Shown: in pieces, positions 13,837-58,329 of the stretch | Position numbering within the stretch: position 1 is the first letter of the stretch | Layout: each line of letters opens with the position of its first letter | Assembly: GCF_010729485.1 (NCBI RefSeq) | Contig: NZ_AP022609.1 | Span: 1,674,001-1,738,000, forward strand | DNA length: 64,000 bases | Direction of reading: 5' to 3' | Source: Mycolicibacter hiberniae | GTDB taxonomy: Bacteria > Actinomycetota > Actinomycetes > Mycobacteriales > Mycobacteriaceae | Program-made: the position numbers and the translations under genes | The notes under the pieces: model-generated | The model's database searches: none | Told to the model about the DNA's origin: nothing | The model's input: the letters and a program-made list of their open reading frames with translations, nothing else

Positions 13837-14301
13837 ATGAAAACCGGTGACACCGTGGCGGACTTCGAGCTCCCCGACCAGACCGGGGCGCTGCGCACCC
13901 TCAGTGAGCTGCTGGCCGCGGGGCCGGTGGTGCTGTTCTTCTATCCGGCGGCGATGACGCCGGGCTGCACCAAGGAAGCCTGTCACTTCCGCGACCTGGC
14001 CGGCGAGTTCGCCGCCGTCGGGGCCACCCGGGTGGGTATCAGCGCCGACGCGGTCGCCAAACAGGCCAAGTTCGCCGACCAGCAGGGGTTCGATTACCCG
14101 CTTTTGTCCGACGCCGACGGCACCGTGGCGGCGCAGTTCGGCGTCAAGCGCGGCCTGCTGGGCAAGTTCCTGCCGGTGAAGCGGACCACGTTCGTGATCG
14201 ACACCGACCGCACCGTGCTGGCCGTGATCGCCAGCGAGTTCTCGATGGACACCCACGCCGATACGGCGCTGGAGGCGTTGCGGACGCGCCGGACGGCCTA
14301 G
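13837..14301 (+). CDS. bcpB: Thiol peroxidase of the BCP/PrxQ family
   Basis: This 154-residue peroxiredoxin reduces hydroperoxides. The peroxidatic cysteine is C44 in [10 protein letters not shown] and the resolving cysteine is C49, the C-x4-C spacing of atypical two-cysteine PrxQ enzymes. The thioredoxin-fold elements [10 protein letters not shown] and the later RTTFVIDTD strand are intact. The length matches Rv1608c BcpB as I recall. The start at ATG 13837 gives [15 protein letters not shown], the usual N-terminus. The gene is divergent from trpE and convergent with the first DivIVA-like gene, with only 19 nt between their stops. Confidence 0.94.
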
Positions 14302-14320
14302 CAGCGCGGCTCTACCCCGG

Positions 14321-15361
14321 TTATCCGCCGGTGTGCGCCGGTGCCTCGGATTCGGCCTCGCTCGCCTCGGCTGGGCCGGCCGCTGCCCGGGCCTCGCCGA
14401 CCGCGGTGTCGATCCAATTTCTGATCTCGCTGAGGTGGGTGACGATGCCGGCGCGTTCGCGGCCGAGTTGCTCCACCTCGGCCTGCGTGCGGTCGCGCAG
14501 CAGTTTGGCCTCGCGTTTGGTGTTGGCGATCAGCGAGGACGCCTCCAGGCGGGCCTCCTTGTCCAGCTTGGCGATGTTGGCCTCGGCCTGCTCCCACGCC
14601 GCCTTCATCTTCTGGTCCAGGCGCTGCTGGGCCTCGCGGCGGTTGCGCTCGTCCTCTTCCCAGGCCAGCTTGATCTGCTCGTCGAGGGCCTCCTGCGCCG
14701 CCCGGCGATTGCGTTCGTCGTCCTCGGCCAGCCGCTGGTACACCTCGCGGCGACTGCGCTCGGCTTCTTCGATCTCCTGGGCGATGCGGCTGCGCTCCTC
14801 GTGGGCGATGCGCAGGATCTGCTCCGCCTCCTGGGTCGCGGCTTCGAGAATCTTCGTCCGGCGGGCGTGGGTGGACGCCTGGAACTCGGCGAGTGCCGCA
14901 CTGGCAGCAGCCCGGTCGTGACTGGCCGCCTCCAGCTGCTCGCGCAGCTCCGTGGTGAGGGCCTCGGCGTCCTGGCGTGCCAGTTCCTTGGTGCGCCGCG
15001 CCTCCTCGGAGGCGATGCGCATCATCCGCGCGATCCGGTCGGACATGCCCTCGACGGAGTCGACCGGGCCGGCGACCTGCTCGAACTGCGATCGCAGCTG
15101 GGCCAGTTCGGCCGTGAGGCGCTGCCGCTCGTTCTCGGCCTCGGCGGTCATACGCACCACGTCGTTTTGCAGCCGCGTGACTTCGGCGGCCAGCTGTTCG
15201 CGGTCGATGAGCGTCTTCGACTTGCTCGCCTCGAGGGACTTGTTGCGCTCCTGCAGCACGCTGATCTCGTGGTGCAGCCTGCCGATGTAGTCGGAGACCT
15301 CATTGCGATCGAAACCGCGCATCTGCGTTTCGAAGTCGGGAATCTCCAGCGCCACCGGCAT
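14321..15361 (-). CDS. DivIVA-domain coiled-coil protein (paralog A)
   Basis: The 346-residue protein opens with a DivIVA-like segment, FETQMRGFDRNEVSDYIGRL (residues 9-28), then predicted coiled coil to about residue 320 and an acidic Ala/Glu tail. Residues 191-278 contain four units of exactly 22 residues. Units 213-234 and 235-256 are nearly identical in pattern (E-x-D-E-R-N-R-R at the start, K-x-A-W at the end). DivIVA proteins such as Wag31 bind curved membrane at poles and scaffold growth, but this is not Wag31: it lacks the Wag31 length and context. A GTG at 15373 is an alternative start. It is a clear paralog of the next gene and has its own sigma-A-like promoter. A polar or cytoskeletal scaffold role is inference. 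Confidence 0.82.
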   Translation of the reverse strand: MPVALEIPDFETQMRGFDRNEVSDYIGRLHHEISVLQERNKSLEASKSKTLIDREQLAAEVTRLQNDVVRMTAEAENERQRLTAELAQLRSQFEQVAGPVDSVEGMSDRIARMMRIASEEARRTKELARQDAEALTTELREQLEAASHDRAAASAALAEFQASTHARRTKILEAATQEAEQILRIAHEERSRIAQEIEEAERSRREVYQRLAEDDERNRRAAQEALDEQIKLAWEEDERNRREAQQRLDQKMKAAWEQAEANIAKLDKEARLEASSLIANTKREAKLLRDRTQAEVEQLGRERAGIVTHLSEIRNWIDTAVGEARAAAGPAEASEAESEAPAHTGG

Positions 15362-15475
15362 GCTCCTAAGCACCTGAGGGGGTCGGTCTTCGGTCGATGG
15401 GGTAGCCGGAATTCAACCGAGTTGGCTTGTGCCCGAAGCCAACTGGATGTGCCGACTCAAGTCACCGTGCGACGG

Positions 15476-15504
15476 AGCGTATCAGAACCCCGCGGGCATG
15501 TCAC
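15476..15504 (-). promoter_or_regulatory. Sigma-A-like promoter of DivIVA paralog A
   Basis: On the minus strand GTGACA (15504-15499) and TACGCT (15481-15476) are separated by 17 nt, close to the housekeeping -35/-10 consensus. The element starts just downstream of the stop of paralog B and leaves a leader of about 110 nt before paralog A. A near-copy precedes paralog B. Confidence 0.6.
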
Positions 15505-15509
15505 CGGAC

Positions 15510-16493
15510 TTACGGTGGGCGAACAGCTTGGGTTTCGCTACCGGCAGTGCCGATCCACTTCTGGATCTCGTCGAGGTCGGCGCGGATTCCGGCGCGCTCG
15601 ACGTGCAGCAGCGCCCCGTCGGCGTGTGCTCGTTCGCGCAGCGCCCCGGCTTGTCGCTCGGCATCGGCGATCAGGGCCGTCGCTTGCGCCCGCGCCTGTT
15701 CGTCGATCGTGGCGATGTTGGCCTCGACCTGTTCCCAGGTGGCCTGCAGCTTCTGCTCCAGCTGCCGCCGCGACCGACGGCGATTGCGTTCGTCGTCTTC
15801 CCAGGACCGCTTGATCTGGTTGTCGAGGGCCTCGTTGGACGCCAGGCGGCGGCGTTCGTCCTCCTCGGCCAGCCGGCGGTACAACGCCCGGCGGCGCTGT
15901 TGGGCCTCGGCGGTCTGTTCGGCGATGCGAGCGCGCTCCTCGTGCGCCGATCGCAGGATCTGCTGCGCTTCGGCGGTTGCGATGTCCAGGATCTTGATCT
16001 GGCGCGTTCGGGCCGCCGACTCCACCCCGGTCAGTTCTTCGCCGGCGGCGGCCCGCTCGTAGCGGGCGGCCACCAGCTTCTCGCGCAGATCCCGGGTCAG
16101 AGCGTCAGTCTCCCGACAAGCCAGCTCCTTGACGCGCCGCGCCTCCTCGGCGGCCATCCGCATCATCACCGTCAGCCGCTCGGGTGCTCCGACCGCCGGA
16201 TTCTCGGCGCCGGTGGCCTCAGCGAGCCGGCGGCGCAGGTTCTGTATCTCGGCGATGAGTTCACCGCGCCGGCAGTCGGCATCGGCGGCCTTGTGCACGA
16301 CGTCCTTCTTCAGCCTCGCCAGCTCGGCAATGAGTTGTTCGCGATTCGATTCAGCCTGCGTCCGCACGGCGTTGAGCGATTTCGCCCGGTCGCGCAAATA
16401 GTCGATTTCGTGGTGGAGGCGCGCGAGGTAATCCGCCACCGCAGTGCGATCGAAACCGCGCATCTGCGTTGGGAATGGCGGAATATTCAGCAC
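15510..16493 (-). CDS. DivIVA-domain coiled-coil protein (paralog B)
   Basis: This 327-residue protein is collinear with paralog A. It starts with FPTQMRGFDRTAVADYLARL, has a long heptad/hendecad coiled coil and ends in DLDEIQKWIGTA, the counterpart of A's LSEIRNWIDTA. The same 22-residue units recur in its C-terminal half (EEDERRRLA..., EDDERNRRR..., EQVEANIAT...). It lacks A's acidic tail and is more basic. A cysteine pair is seen at VKELACRE and DADCRRGE. Strong AGGAGGAG precedes the GTG start at 16493. Gene order, architecture and promoter similarity indicate tandem duplication. It may hetero-oligomerise with A through the coiled coil; that is inference. Confidence 0.8.
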   Translation of the reverse strand: MLNIPPFPTQMRGFDRTAVADYLARLHHEIDYLRDRAKSLNAVRTQAESNREQLIAELARLKKDVVHKAADADCRRGELIAEIQNLRRRLAEATGAENPAVGAPERLTVMMRMAAEEARRVKELACRETDALTRDLREKLVAARYERAAAGEELTGVESAARTRQIKILDIATAEAQQILRSAHEERARIAEQTAEAQQRRRALYRRLAEEDERRRLASNEALDNQIKRSWEDDERNRRRSRRQLEQKLQATWEQVEANIATIDEQARAQATALIADAERQAGALRERAHADGALLHVERAGIRADLDEIQKWIGTAGSETQAVRPP

Positions 16494-16608
16494 CGGAACC
16501 GACTCCTCCTCTCGGCAAGACTCGATGGTCGGCCGGCGCCTGGGTCAACCCCGGGAAAAGCGCACATCAGGACAGGTCAGCCGCCACAGACACGCCGCCG
16601 CGCGACGA

Positions 16609-16637
16609 AGCGTAGCAGACGGGTGCGAACGTGTCAC
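16609..16637 (-). promoter_or_regulatory. Sigma-A-like promoter of DivIVA paralog B
   Basis: On the minus strand GTGACA (16637-16632) and TACGCT (16614-16609) are again 17 nt apart. Flanking bases also match the paralog A promoter (CGGTGACA before and CGTCGC after the -10), so the promoter was duplicated with the gene. Confidence 0.6.
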
Positions 16638-16665
16638 CGAAAAAATAAATGGCCGAAGCGGTACT

Positions 16666-17445
16666 TCAGTGCGGGCGATTTTCTCGAAACCAGGTTTCTC
16701 TGGCCGACAATGCCGATTCGCGATCCACCTGCCGCGCGGCATTAACTTGAGTTTCGGCATTAACTTGTTTGGCGCGATTGGCCTGCGATGTCGACCGCTC
16801 AATCTGGCCGACGATCTTCGCGCGCGCATCGATGAGTTCGGCCAGGCGCCGTTGCGCGTCTGCGACGTGGCTGGTGATCGCCTGGTTCATCTCGGTCAGG
16901 ATCGCCGAGGCGTGACTTTCGGCCTCTTTCATGATTTCGGCCGCGCTCAGCACGGCCTGTCGCCGCAGATGCGCGGCCTGCGCCCGCAGGTGTTTGTGCT
17001 GTGTTTCCAGCTCGGCCCGCAGTTCGGCTGCCTCGCGGCGCTGAGCCTCGGCGTCGGCGAGAACGGCCGCAGCCTCGCTCTGGGCCGCCGCGCGCAGCTC
17101 GTCGGCGAAGCGCTGCGCCTCTGCGCGGATATCCTCGGCTTCGGCCATCGCGCCGTTGAGAATGCCAGACAGTCGATCGCTGAGATCCACGATGTCGCCC
17201 GGAATCGCGGAGGCCAACTCGGTGAACTGCGCCGAGGCGGATTCCAGATTCGCTTGCGATTCGCTCAGCTGGTTCGTCAGCGCGATGATCCGCGATCCGT
17301 CCCGCGGCATGTGCGCTTCGATGTCACTGACGGTGCCGTGTGCGTAGTGCGAGTCGATCTGCAGCGACACCCGGTCCAGCTCCACCCCCCGGGTGCGCTG
17401 GCTGTGCTCCAACAGGTACCGGTCGTCAGGCTCGTCGGAAGTCAC
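16666..17445 (-). CDS. Ala/Glu-rich coiled-coil protein next to the DivIVA-like pair
   Basis: The protein has 259 residues from a GTG at 17445 (VTSDEPDDRYLLEHSQ). After a short acidic, non-helical head, it is almost all predicted coiled coil from about residue 45 to 235, with AEAEDIRAEAQRFADELRAA and AAELRAELETQHKHLRAQ. A basic Gln/Asn-rich tail ends it. The head lacks the G-F-D-R DivIVA signature, so it is not a simple third copy. The heptads resemble those of ATP-synthase b subunits and DivIVA tails, a low-complexity likeness only. TATGCT lies 8 nt before the GTG, suggesting a near-leaderless mRNA. The three same-strand coiled-coil genes probably work together; no function is established. 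Confidence 0.72.
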   Translation of the reverse strand: MTSDEPDDRYLLEHSQRTRGVELDRVSLQIDSHYAHGTVSDIEAHMPRDGSRIIALTNQLSESQANLESASAQFTELASAIPGDIVDLSDRLSGILNGAMAEAEDIRAEAQRFADELRAAAQSEAAAVLADAEAQRREAAELRAELETQHKHLRAQAAHLRRQAVLSAAEIMKEAESHASAILTEMNQAITSHVADAQRRLAELIDARAKIVGQIERSTSQANRAKQVNAETQVNAARQVDRESALSARETWFRENRPH

Positions 17446-17532
17446 AGTCGGCCAGCATACCGCTCCGCAGCCGGTACCGAATGGATCTGCGGGACTGTCG
17501 AAGACGTCGCGGTGTGCGGACAAATCCGGCTG

Positions 17533-18519
17533 CTACAGATACGTCCTGAGGTGGTCGCGCAGGCTGGACGTGAACGCGGCGGCAACCGCTGATCTGGGCG
17601 CATAGCCGTCTGCGGCGTGGTACATCCCCGCCACGGTGAGAAGTTCGCACGGCACGCCGCAGGCGCGCAGCGTGTGCGCGTAGGCGACGTCCTCCGCGTA
17701 GAAGAGGTCCAGTTCACCCACCCCGATCCAGGCGGGCGCCAGACCGGACAGGTTCGCGCGCCGGGCCGGCGCGGCGTAGGGCGGTGCGTCGGTCATCCGC
17801 GGCGCCCGGCCCAGGTAGGCGGTCCAGGCGAAGCGATTGGACTCCGGCGTCCAGACCAACCGTCCGCGCCCACCGCTGTCGCGCAGTACCGTGCGGTCGT
17901 CGAGCATGGGGTAGACCAGGGCCTGGGCCCGCAATGCGAGGCCCTCGTCGTGGCAACGCTGGGCGACGGCCGCCGCGAGACCGCCGCCGGCGCTGAACCC
18001 GGCCACCGCGATGCGGTCGGGGTCGATTCCCAACGTGACGGCACGCTCGCGCATCCAGCTCAGCGTCGCCATGCAGTCGTCCAGGGCAGCCGGGAAGGGG
18101 TTTTCCGGCGCCAACCGATAGTCCGGCGCCACGATCACCGCGTCCAGCTCGCGGGCAAGACGCCCGTAAGTGCTCAATTCCAGGCGGGCAGAACCCACGA
18201 TCATCCCGCCGCCGTGCAGCATCAGGACAGCGGGCCCGGGCCGGCGGGCGCTGCGGGGTGTCGCCACCAGCACCCGCATACCGGCCGCGCCGACACGCTG
18301 GGTCGTCACGGTGACGCCGGGACCGGCCGGCCGCTTGATCCGGTAGACCGCCCGCAGGAACGGCAGCGTGTGTGCGCGGTAGGTCATGGTCACATACGGC
18401 AACAGCGGACTGCGGAGCTCGGGTGCGACGCCGGCGAAGGCCGGGCGCAACCGCAGGTAGCGGCGCGCCGCGAGCGCCGCCGTTGCCGTGGCGGCAGCGC
18501 CGGCCAGGGTTGCGCGCAC
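17533..18519 (-). CDS. HSL-family alpha/beta hydrolase (lipase/esterase)
   Basis: This 328-residue enzyme carries HGGG at 102-105, the nucleophile S176 in GFSAGGG, the acid D271 in GELDLF and the base H301 in AGMYHAAD, the complete hormone-sensitive-lipase triad. Residues 1-20 are Ala-rich and may attach the protein to the membrane. It ends close upstream of hisI, but on the same strand after a 6-nt gap (it starts at 18519, hisI stops at 18526), so it could be the last gene of the his transcript. In M. tuberculosis, from memory, a chaA gene occupies this end of the his cluster. The substrate is unknown; family members hydrolyse short-chain esters and some lipids. Confidence 0.9.
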   Translation of the reverse strand: MRATLAGAAATATAALAARRYLRLRPAFAGVAPELRSPLLPYVTMTYRAHTLPFLRAVYRIKRPAGPGVTVTTQRVGAAGMRVLVATPRSARRPGPAVLMLHGGGMIVGSARLELSTYGRLARELDAVIVAPDYRLAPENPFPAALDDCMATLSWMRERAVTLGIDPDRIAVAGFSAGGGLAAAVAQRCHDEGLALRAQALVYPMLDDRTVLRDSGGRGRLVWTPESNRFAWTAYLGRAPRMTDAPPYAAPARRANLSGLAPAWIGVGELDLFYAEDVAYAHTLRACGVPCELLTVAGMYHAADGYAPRSAVAAAFTSSLRDHLRTYL

Positions 18520-18525
18520 GTCGGC

Positions 18526-55728: not shown

Positions 55729-57075
55729 TCAGCCGAGCGCGGAGTTCGTGCCCGCCAGCGCAGTGTCGCTGTCGTCGAGGACGTGCACCGCGTGAATGCC
55801 CGGCTTCAGGGACAGCTTGGCGACCAACTCGTCCAGGCCGGCCTGATCAACGTTCCAATGCTGCACGACATCCGGCGTCTGCTGCAACTGGGCGATCACC
55901 TGGTCCAGCGGTACCGGCGCGTTGCGGTCGTCGATATTGGTCGAAACCACGCGTGCCACCGGCGCCACCGTCCGGGTGCGCGCCGCGGGAGCGCCCAGCG
56001 CGCCGCCGGCGGCGCTGCCCAGGGCCGCCGGTGCCAGCATGCCCGGCACAGCGCCCGCGGCCGGTGCGGCGCCCAGCGCCGTCTCGGGAAACGACGTGGA
56101 CGCCAGCTGAATGGCCGAGGTCGCGCTGGCCCAGTTCGGCGGCACCGACAGCGCACCGACCCGCATCGCGCTGGCCGTACTGGCACCGGCGGCGCTGGTC
56201 AGCCCCGCGCCCGCGGTCAGGCCGGTGCTGGTCAGGCCGCCGCCGAGTGCGGCTTTGGGAACCGCGGGCAGCACCGCCTTGTAGCCCGACCGGAACTGCG
56301 TGATGCTCATGTTGGTGCTGGCGTGCACCGTGTTGACCCAGGCGGTCTGGCTGCTGGTCCCCGAGATCAACGCCAGGTGTGATTCCAGGTAGGACCGGGC
56401 CTCGGGGCCGCCGGTGGCGGTGTCGATGAAGTCCTGCCAGCCCTTGTTGTAGCCCGCGGTCATGTCGTTGATCTCTTTGAGGACGCCCTGCAGGATGTCG
56501 TGCGGTGTCACCGGGGCGCTCGCCTCGGAACTGCCCGCGGTGGCGTTGGTGGTCTGCGGCGGCTCGGTGAATGACGTGAGGTCGGTGGCGGCCGCCGAGG
56601 CGCCGGCGTAGCCGAGCATCGCGGAGATGTCCTGCGACCACATCTGACCGTATTCGGCCTCGACGGCGGCGATCGCGGTGCTGTTCTGGCCGAGGATGTT
56701 GGTGGCCACCAGCGAGGCCAGCTGGCTGCGGTTGGCCGCGATCGCCGGCGGCGGCACGATCCCGGCGAAAGCCGATTCGTAGGCGCTGGCCGCGGCCGTC
56801 GCCTTGGCCGCGGTCTCCTGGGCCTGCGCCGCGGTGGTGGACAACCAGGTCACATAGGGAGCCGCGGCGGCCGCCATGGCCGCCGCCGCAGGACCCTGCC
56901 AGCCCCCACTGAGGCCCGACAGCGCTGCCTGGTACGACGACGCGGCGGCATGCAGCTCGGCGGCCAATCCCGACCAGGCCACCGCGGCGGCGAACAGCGG
57001 GTCAGCACCCGGACCGGAGTACAACTGGCCCGAGATCACCTCGGGGGGCTGCGCGGCAAAACTGTAGAACACCAT
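55729..57075 (-). CDS. PPE-family protein, SVP subgroup (second of the pair)
   Basis: The 448-residue protein starts with a PPE domain (QPPEVISGQLYSGPGADPL) that normally packs with a PE protein. WQGPAAAAMAAAAAPYVTWL is the expected helix-turn-helix W-x-G. A middle linker leads to the SVP motif VGALSVPPNWASA near residue 310 and an Ala-rich C-terminus. It lies 18 nt after the stop of the upstream PPE gene, and AGTAGGT precedes the ATG. No PE, EsxA/B or ESX core gene is adjacent, so an unlinked partner or ESX-5 export is inferred only from the SVP class. The C-terminus is unrelated in detail to its neighbour's. Confidence 0.92.
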   Translation of the reverse strand: MVFYSFAAQPPEVISGQLYSGPGADPLFAAAVAWSGLAAELHAAASSYQAALSGLSGGWQGPAAAAMAAAAAPYVTWLSTTAAQAQETAAKATAAASAYESAFAGIVPPPAIAANRSQLASLVATNILGQNSTAIAAVEAEYGQMWSQDISAMLGYAGASAAATDLTSFTEPPQTTNATAGSSEASAPVTPHDILQGVLKEINDMTAGYNKGWQDFIDTATGGPEARSYLESHLALISGTSSQTAWVNTVHASTNMSITQFRSGYKAVLPAVPKAALGGGLTSTGLTAGAGLTSAAGASTASAMRVGALSVPPNWASATSAIQLASTSFPETALGAAPAAGAVPGMLAPAALGSAAGGALGAPAARTRTVAPVARVVSTNIDDRNAPVPLDQVIAQLQQTPDVVQHWNVDQAGLDELVAKLSLKPGIHAVHVLDDSDTALAGTNSALG

Positions 57076-57093
57076 GAACGCGACCTACTTTCG

Positions 57094-58329
57094 CTATTTC
57101 GCGATCGGCGGGATGACGATGACGGTGGCCGTGGTGGCGATATCCGGCCCCGTCTGGGTGTTGGTGACGTGGCTGATGGCGCTGATCGCGCGGGTGGAGG
57201 CGGCTCCGGCGGCCTGACGCACCGGGGTGCCGATCGCGCGACCGGCGAGGCTCGACAGCGCCATCTGGCCGGCCAGCAGGCTCTCCCCGTTGGCGGCCAG
57301 GGCGGGCGCGGCCTCGAGCACGCCGGCCTGCAGGGCCACCGCAGCGGTCTTGGCGGCCGGGACCGCGCTCGCCCAGCTGGCCGGAACCGACATCGACCCG
57401 ATCAGTCCCGCCCGGCCCATCGCCCCCGACACCGGCACGGCGTGCGAGCCGCTCAGCATGGTGCTGGACATCAACGGCGCCAAGGCACCGACGATCGGCT
57501 TGGGGCTGAGCGTGGACGTCAGGTTGCCGAGCGAGTTGGCCACCGCCGGGATGCTGATCGACATCTGGTAGATGCCGCGGGCCGAATTGATCAATCCGGT
57601 GGCGTAGGGCCCGTTGTAGGTGCTCAGCGCCGTGGACAGGGTCTTGACGATCGCCTGGTAATCCTCGAATAGCTGGGTGGGCAGCATCAACGGGTTCAGG
57701 GTCATGTTCTGCAGGGCTTCGGGAATCTGGCTGAGCAGGTCCGACAGCGTCGACTGACCTGCGGCAGCAGTCGCCGCCGCGGGCTGGCTGATCTGGCCGG
57801 TGCCGTTCGTGGTCTCCGCGGGGGCGGTGAACGGGGCCAGCTGGCTGGCAGCCGCCGACGAGCCGGCGTAGGCGTACATCGCGGCCGCGTCCTGAGCCCA
57901 CATCTCGCCGTACTGCGCCTCGGTCGCCGCGATCGCCGGGGCGTTCTGTCCCAGGAAGTTGGTGGCGACCAGCGACGCCAGCAGCGCGCGGTTGGCCGCG
58001 ATCAACGGCGGCGGCACGGTTGCGGCATAGGCGGCCTCGTAGGCGGCCGCCGCCGCGGTGGCCTTCATCGCCGTCTCTTCGGCCCCGGTCGCGGTGGCTT
58101 TGAGCCACGCCGCGTACGGGGCGGCCGCCGCAACCATGGCGGCCGCGGAGGGACCCTGCCAGGCCGAGTCCGCGAGGTCGGCGATCACCGCGGCATAGGA
58201 GGTCGCGGTGTAGTTCAGCTCGGTGGCCATCGCCGCCCAGTTCGCCGCGGCGGCCAGCAACGGCGCCGAGCCGGGGCCGGCGTACATGTTCGCCGAATTG
58301 ACCTCCGGCGGAAGTGCCCCGAAATCCAT
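57094..58329 (-). CDS. PPE-family protein, SVP subgroup (first of the pair)
   Basis: The 411-residue protein has the canonical [20 protein letters not shown] start. [20 protein letters not shown] holds the W-x-G, followed by [20 protein letters not shown] shared with the neighbouring PPE, and [13 protein letters not shown] is the SVP motif. The N-terminal 180 residues align closely with the second PPE while the tails differ, as in tandem duplication followed by drift. A structured 371-bp region precedes it. No ESX or PE gene is next to it. Confidence 0.92.

Follow-up and report, generated by a model that had tools for sequence, protein, structure and literature searches.

Three coding frames, all on the minus strand, occupy positions 14321-17445 of the stretch of DNA analyzed here (the window: 64,000 nucleotides of Mycolicibacter hiberniae contig NZ_AP022609.1, part of a 4.40 Mb one-contig genome). 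Two of them, genes C and A, putatively encode a two-part accessory scaffold from the FilP/Scy branch of DivIVA-like proteins, in which A would anchor and C would co-assemble, a reading to which we give a probability of about 0.5. Gene A (14321-15355, minus strand) is predicted to encode a FilP/DivIVA-like protein of 344 amino acids with a GTG start and a disordered tail. Gene B (15510-16493, minus strand), which starts at a GTG behind AGGAGGAG, appears to be a duplicate of A with the same head type, and gene C (16666-17445, minus strand; GTG start, 259 amino acids) encodes a related rod that carries the motif LSDRLSGILNGAMAEAE and no canonical head. An earlier sequence-only reading had placed three same-strand genes at the his end, flanked by bcpB and a lipase, and it was right about both the arrangement and its outer coordinates. 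The scaffold function suggested for the three genes is one that we infer from their family.

Co-occurrence among 198 Mycobacterium genomes singles out two of the three genes. With A as the query, at an expectation value (E) of 1e-3, 26 of the 198 gave a match (18 strong, 7 weak on the rod, and 1 weak on the head), while C matched 20, namely the same 18 as the strong A matches plus 2 weak ones. In all 18, C and A lie together with C upstream, and B lies in between in 7. A search with B returns the same 18 genomes, only 7 of which hold two A-type copies; two copies are also present in 9 of 12 named loci (11 from Mycolicibacter and one from Mycobacterium sp.). In a phylogenetic tree, the B copies cluster together (support 93/89), and those of A from Mycolicibacter make up a separate group (89/81) that includes genome G149, which has no B; the simplest account of B is therefore a single duplication with loss in some genomes. 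As judged from these data, the conserved unit is the pair C then A, and B is a lineage-specific duplicate within Mycolicibacter. The earlier proposal that the three genes co-occur and act as one cluster thus survives in part: A and C are neighbors in the same genomes, but B, missing from 11 of the 18, looks like a later duplicate with its own copy of a promoter-like element, and the three do not make up a fixed complex. In G163, an additional C-type gene (locus L063, 9037-9837) has no A next to it.

The tie of A and B to DivIVA lies in the head, which in A is FETQMRGFDRNEVSDY. The two proteins are ~51% identical and both match the Pfam DivIVA profile PF05103 (A, E 1.4e-5 and 25.5 bits; B, E 3.3e-5 and 24.3 bits), each below the cut-off of 28. 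A reached 32.1 bits in a whole-genome scan that included neighboring stretches, and two relatives exceed the cut-off (39.2 bits for A of L070, 33.9 bits for P0044). These matches bear out the view, taken in the sequence-only reading, of A and B as two DivIVA-type paralogs; of the two outcomes it had named as contradicting it, a profile comparison empty of DivIVA-domain matches and a lack of co-occurrence in other genomes, neither came about. An A-family profile also matched the solved DivIVA head 2wuj (E 3.9e-4), a comparison in which two unrelated coiled-coil chains score slightly better. According to a survey of such proteins (PMC9858780; this and the other papers cited here are drawn on in excerpt), a DivIVA-like domain is an RGYDxxEVD motif before a heptad coiled coil, and its loop Tyr and the Asp after Val are hydrogen-bond partners between chains. 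Among the matches listed, 44 of 48 A homologs have readable heads; the loop Tyr survives in 1 and gives way to Phe in 36 and Leu in 7; at the position following Val, 38 heads have Ser, Ala or Thr and none has Asp; and none of the 48 fits the pattern GY[DN]xx[QE]V[DN] given in the excerpted survey. By this count, the A-family head deviates from the canonical motif at both inter-chain bond partners, yet by profile it still appears to resemble DivIVA. The residue preceding the head Arg is hydrophobic in 43 of these 44 heads, giving a tip like that of Bacillus subtilis DivIVA, where the membrane-inserting F17 lies beside R18 (PMC3924036). In the alignment of A and B with their relatives, a single head motif can be seen, compared with the two to eight DivIVA-like domains per chain that characterize PolyDIV proteins in the excerpts of PMC9858780.

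The closest full-length relatives found for A appear to be FilP-context proteins and not Wag31, a link that runs through relatives assigned by gene context. We aligned seven non-Mycobacterium proteins encoded near methylmalonyl-CoA epimerase (alignment A7) and call them FilP-context relatives on the grounds of that gene context; PMC9858780 describes the epimerase neighborhood as the context of Scy and some FilP clusters. The A family matched A7 at 99.85% in hhalign (E 7e-31, 260 columns) and the C family at 97.8% (E 1.2e-12). Within the order, 127 of 249 genomes, Mycobacterium included, hold a match to the A-family profile at E 1e-6. In 18 loci around such relatives, those from outside Mycobacterium have genes for methylmalonyl-CoA epimerase and acetyl-CoA acetyltransferase close to the A-like gene (by eye); this cluster spans nine loci, seven of which were read, with L104 and L105 confirmed. 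The epimerase gene was found in none of 28 C-A pair loci tested and in all four control loci. A thiolase upstream of C in G171 (L064, 11245-12423) is 37% identical to the thiolase beside the FilP-context genes.

The hallmark of the FilP family is a pair of motifs, one at the N-terminal border of each of the first two coiled-coil segments, and filaments have been reported from three of its members (PMC2680258; Bagchi 2008). In A, segment 1 begins with the head, and SVEGMSDRIARMMRIASEEA follows at the helix break, aligned with the same stretch of the FilP-context proteins; compared with the published description, A seems to fit both positions and C to have the second motif only. FilP is apparently absent from most mycobacteria (PMC4255298). 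The A7 profile matched 52 of 118 Mycobacterium genomes at E 1e-4, strongly (E about 1e-45) in G050, G087 and G091, in the second of which the match lies beside orn and an Ldt-like gene (by eye); in the window's genome, A and C are its only matches.

Structure prediction agrees with a segmented rod in A and a single one in C. The AlphaFold model of A, a single chain in 346-amino-acid numbering, consists of helices 19-97 and 103-321 (mean predicted local distance difference test score [pLDDT] 84.7; predicted template modeling score [pTM] 0.32), and the break between them falls at GPVDSVEGMSDR, where the second conserved motif starts. C, likewise modeled as a single chain, forms one long helix (49-233) behind a disordered N terminus (mean pLDDT 79.6, pTM 0.32). 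C itself has no Pfam match above cut-off, but it has the second (hinge) motif and the second-segment rod without the canonical head. Of three C homologs scanned, P0085 exceeds the PF05103 cut-off (30.6 bits, profile 32-128), P0086 falls below it (24.6 bits, profile 56-128) and P0067 gives no match; both matches cover the post-head part of the profile. The A and C families are themselves profile-related (hhalign 94.7%). The earlier description of C as a third coiled-coil protein without a head is supported. In a test of hydrophobic periodicity against shuffled sequences at the 99% level, C passes clearly, A passes just (90.3 vs 88.4) and two globular controls fail, so that periodicity backs the predicted coiled coils in part: clearly for C, just for A and not for B. 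A 22-residue step in the rods of A, B, P0003 and P0028, missing from the other ten alignment rows, equals two hendecads and would keep the coiled-coil phase.

Compared with the FilP family (SCO5396 of Streptomyces and the filament-forming Mb 1709 of Mycobacterium bovis [PMC2680258]), A appears to share a DivIVA-like head, a segmented rod and a second motif where segment 2 begins, but it differs in its head (RG[FL]D..[EQ]V[SAT]DY vs RGYD..EVD), in having no epimerase neighbor, and in being paired with C. C resembles Scy, the tandem neighbor of FilP in Streptomyces, in that each is a further coiled-coil member of the family encoded next to a FilP-like gene, with an altered N terminus. However, C has 259 amino acids and not over 1000, and Scy keeps RGYD (PMC9858780), whereas C does not; the Scy equivalog model NF041483 (cut-off 1040 bits) was not among the matches of A, B and C up to E 1. 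Wag31/DivIVA shares the head family and coiled-coil rod with A and B, which nevertheless differ from it in subfamily by profile score, in gene context, and in being accessory rather than universal. SepIVA (Rv2927c/MSMEG_2416) is also a DivIVA-like coiled-coil protein of mycobacteria, septal and, per the excerpted PMC7654743, present across this group; it is set apart from A, B and C by description. A further DivIVA-like protein, with a canonical GYD..V head, lies beside thyA-dfrA-like genes in other mycobacteria (L096, L098, L100 and L101; by eye), and the A profile at E 1e-6 found none of this type in the window's genome.

We propose that A forms parallel dimers via its head and first segment, that the hydrophobic-Arg tip of the head touches the membrane, and that such dimers build a meshwork at the poles or the subpolar membrane. 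C, unable to anchor itself, could then join through its second-segment rod and set filament length or branching, a cooperation modeled on the tandem neighbors Scy and FilP. The changed head interface (Tyr to Phe or Leu, Asp to Ser, Ala or Thr) may insulate A and B from mixing with Wag31, and B might serve to diversify the A side in Mycolicibacter. In this scheme, the pair would be an exchangeable accessory rather than a core growth factor.

Codon evolution points the same way for the pair. In five Mycolicibacter comparisons, the ratio of nonsynonymous to synonymous divergence (w) was 0.12-0.20 for A and 0.09-0.19 for C, values that place both under purifying selection, and 0.42-0.59 for B, which by this estimate is less constrained and fast-evolving. 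The hisF and hisA rows of L023, in which paralogs had been picked, were excluded from use.

Several observations weigh against a two-part FilP-like scaffold. In a terrae-clade comparison with L067, w rose to 0.39 for A and 0.47 for C; reading frames are broken for A and both copies of C in the draft genome G075, and for C in the draft genome G173. The majority of the searched genomes also lack the pair, which is therefore dispensable. A and B taken alone fall under the Pfam DivIVA cut-off, and a basic C-terminal motif found in 17 of the 48 A homologs (among the matches listed) is not in the window's A. The periodicity test is failed by B, by A of G171 (the C of which passes) and by one of two FilP-context relatives, the other of which passes. 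Across the class, only 11 of 148 genomes match the A profile at E 1e-6, 3 of them outside the order, so the profile misses most of the FilP proteins expected elsewhere; the FilP link itself runs through relatives assigned by gene context. Finally, filaments, cellular localization and contact between A and C are parts of the scaffold reading that we infer, the contact from gene order and the shared rod, the models being of single chains with a pTM of 0.32.

The pair is not confined to one site. All 11 genomes closest by DnaE1 among the matches listed (at least 94% identity, the window's included) carry it at the his-trp place. The other seven pair genomes are scattered, six at 87-90% DnaE1 identity and G138 not among the matches listed. 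The sequence-only reading had described the genes at the bcpB/his-end place; the pair is found in at least six contexts (gene names by eye): the his-trp place, a menD-like place (G163, G075), a place beside an fhaA-rodA-pknB-like operon (G138), those of G031 and of G171, and one in G014 and G416 (the latter from the scan of the order). The contig of G023 is too short to assign a context. In G014 and G416, the outer flanks differ, and a divergent TetR-like regulator (L059, 7303-7932; L095, 6598-8052; 76-78% identical) precedes C-A in both. The hisI-bcpB junction (window 14301-18520 and L164-L177) varies as well: among 14 genomes read, some have there an antiporter-like gene, an ATP-binding cassette ATPase, a P450 with a regulator, a kinase-like gene or others, and it is empty in G012, G014, G002 and G087. 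A link to tRNA-based insertion was rejected, with one tRNA-Leu beside the pair in L070 and none in nine other sources scanned.

Silent-site divergence suggests turnover of the pair. Between G022 and G069, which carry it at the same place, synonymous divergence (dS; coding frames of A and C trimmed of noncoding ends) is 0.28 for the trp genes, 0.90 for A and 1.51 for C; between G163 and G031, which carry it at different places, it is 0.32-0.41 for trp, 1.38 for A and 1.76 for C, values above 1 being near saturation. Silent divergence so far above that of the neighbors means that the pair copies parted long before the species, and it points to replacement by transfer or to ancient paralogy with loss. 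A simple transfer story is opposed by G171 and G014, which show no silent-site excess for A (0.89 vs 0.79-0.96 for trp). The trees of A and C group these two genomes (100/99 and 94/88) against the DnaE1 tree, but with A diverged about as much as the trp genes, we do not take the grouping as transfer, and a recent exchange between the two was rejected.

Among other explanations, it is unlikely that A, B and C are extra Wag31-type scaffolds recruiting wall-synthesis enzymes to the pole or septum as a three-protein complex. Their DivIVA-like heads and the retained hydrophobic-Arg tip would fit such a role, as would the position of the G138 pair, which adjoins an fhaA-pstP-rodA-pbpA-pknAB-like operon (by eye). 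However, the Wag31 equivalog model NF050102 (cut-off 260 bits) gives A 20.1 bits and finds no match for B and C up to E 1, while it gives 385.6 bits to the genome's own Wag31, located at L001 beside sepF and yggT (by eye); the FilP-context match is far stronger, and a complex of three would need B where most pair genomes lack it.

The patchiness and turnover of the pair, with strong matches in 18 of 198 genomes and no fewer than six contexts, would also be explained by a role outside growth, such as conflict with phages or plasmids, in which a DivIVA-like rod serves as a membrane platform. The strong divergence of A and C relative to their neighbors in two pairs of close relatives and the transposase-like genes a few kilobases from the pair in G031, G163 and G023 (by eye) agree with this account, which we consider distinctly improbable: no effector domain is present, PADLOC matched A once and weakly (LmuB, 16.1 bits) and neither B nor C, and a plasmid or phage home was rejected for A, which, searched alone at E 1e-5, had no relative among 72,556 plasmid and 50,697 phage records. 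PHROGs gave one weak tape-measure match for C and none for A and B. Least probable of all, and by our estimate a slim chance, is that the genes are nonfunctional or nearly so and kept by chance. The broken copies in G075 and G173 and the fast evolution of B speak for such decay, but A and C have w of at most 0.20 in the five Mycolicibacter comparisons, the pair stays at the his-trp place in all 11 genomes closest by DnaE1, and 15 of 17 Mycolicibacter loci retain a -10 block upstream of A.

Taken further, the two-part scaffold may be a horizontally exchanged accessory cytoskeleton, with a FilP-like anchor of rewired dimer interface and an obligatory headless partner that are exchanged together from species to species, also into the same chromosomal site, in place of the FilP reported lacking from most mycobacteria; we regard this extension as possible but doubtful. 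A FilP-like protein linked to one partner gene in some mycobacteria could be compared in species with and without the pair. Should C and A indeed be exchanged together, the filaments that determine shape in polar-growing bacteria can be accessory and replaceable, and the altered head would help to show how a cell with several DivIVA-like proteins keeps them from mixing. Searches limited to open-licence papers found none on the C-A pair, and the main text, as excerpted, of a 2018 survey listing Mycolicibacter signature proteins (PMC5819568) mentions neither DivIVA nor coiled coils.

The limits of A, which in the window is 98% identical to its counterpart in Mycolicibacter engbaekii, depend on the choice of start codon. 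The listed open reading frame begins at GTG 15373, and ATG 15361 and GTG 15355 (behind TAGGAG) are alternatives; in an alignment of nine loci, the last is kept in 9/9 together with TAGGAG and ATG 15361 only in the window and L023, so 14321-15355 is most likely. Comparison of loci revealed promoter-like elements of one type on the minus strand before A (15469-15504) and B (16602-16637), each with GTGACA, 17 bases and TACGCT, and in that of A a TGA before the second hexamer (by eye). The block TCTGnTACGCTnCGTCGC, with zero to three mismatches, accounts for the 15 of 17 Mycolicibacter loci mentioned for A and precedes B in 11 of 13 (L026 and L075 are one contig, as are L032 and L076). In the loci read, GTGACA or a close variant lies 17 bases upstream of the block, which precedes A in 0 of 9 loci of other lineages. 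B thus appears to have been copied together with its promoter-like element. A possible, weak TATGCT -10 hexamer (17454-17459, minus strand; by eye) just upstream of the GTG of C would give a leaderless transcript. A consensus scan returned no promoters and three terminator-like sites (2.3 expected). The leader of A (15356-15468, minus strand) is conserved in Mycolicibacter loci, and an RNA element in it was rejected: alifold gave -1.81 kcal/mol over 134 columns, and 3 of 12 predicted pairs had any change on both sides, so no fold is supported there; Rfam had no match over 8 kb.

Around the three genes, an Abhydrolase_3 lipase/esterase gene (17533-18519) adjoins C in the window and in L023; it is not in the other five loci tested and therefore looks like a late insertion. 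A gene for a 277-amino-acid methyltransferase-like protein lies between bcpB (or trpE) and A in L069, L071, L072, L076, L025 and L032 and is not in the window. Elsewhere in the window, two adjoining genes at 55729-58329 have PPE-type starts (by eye).

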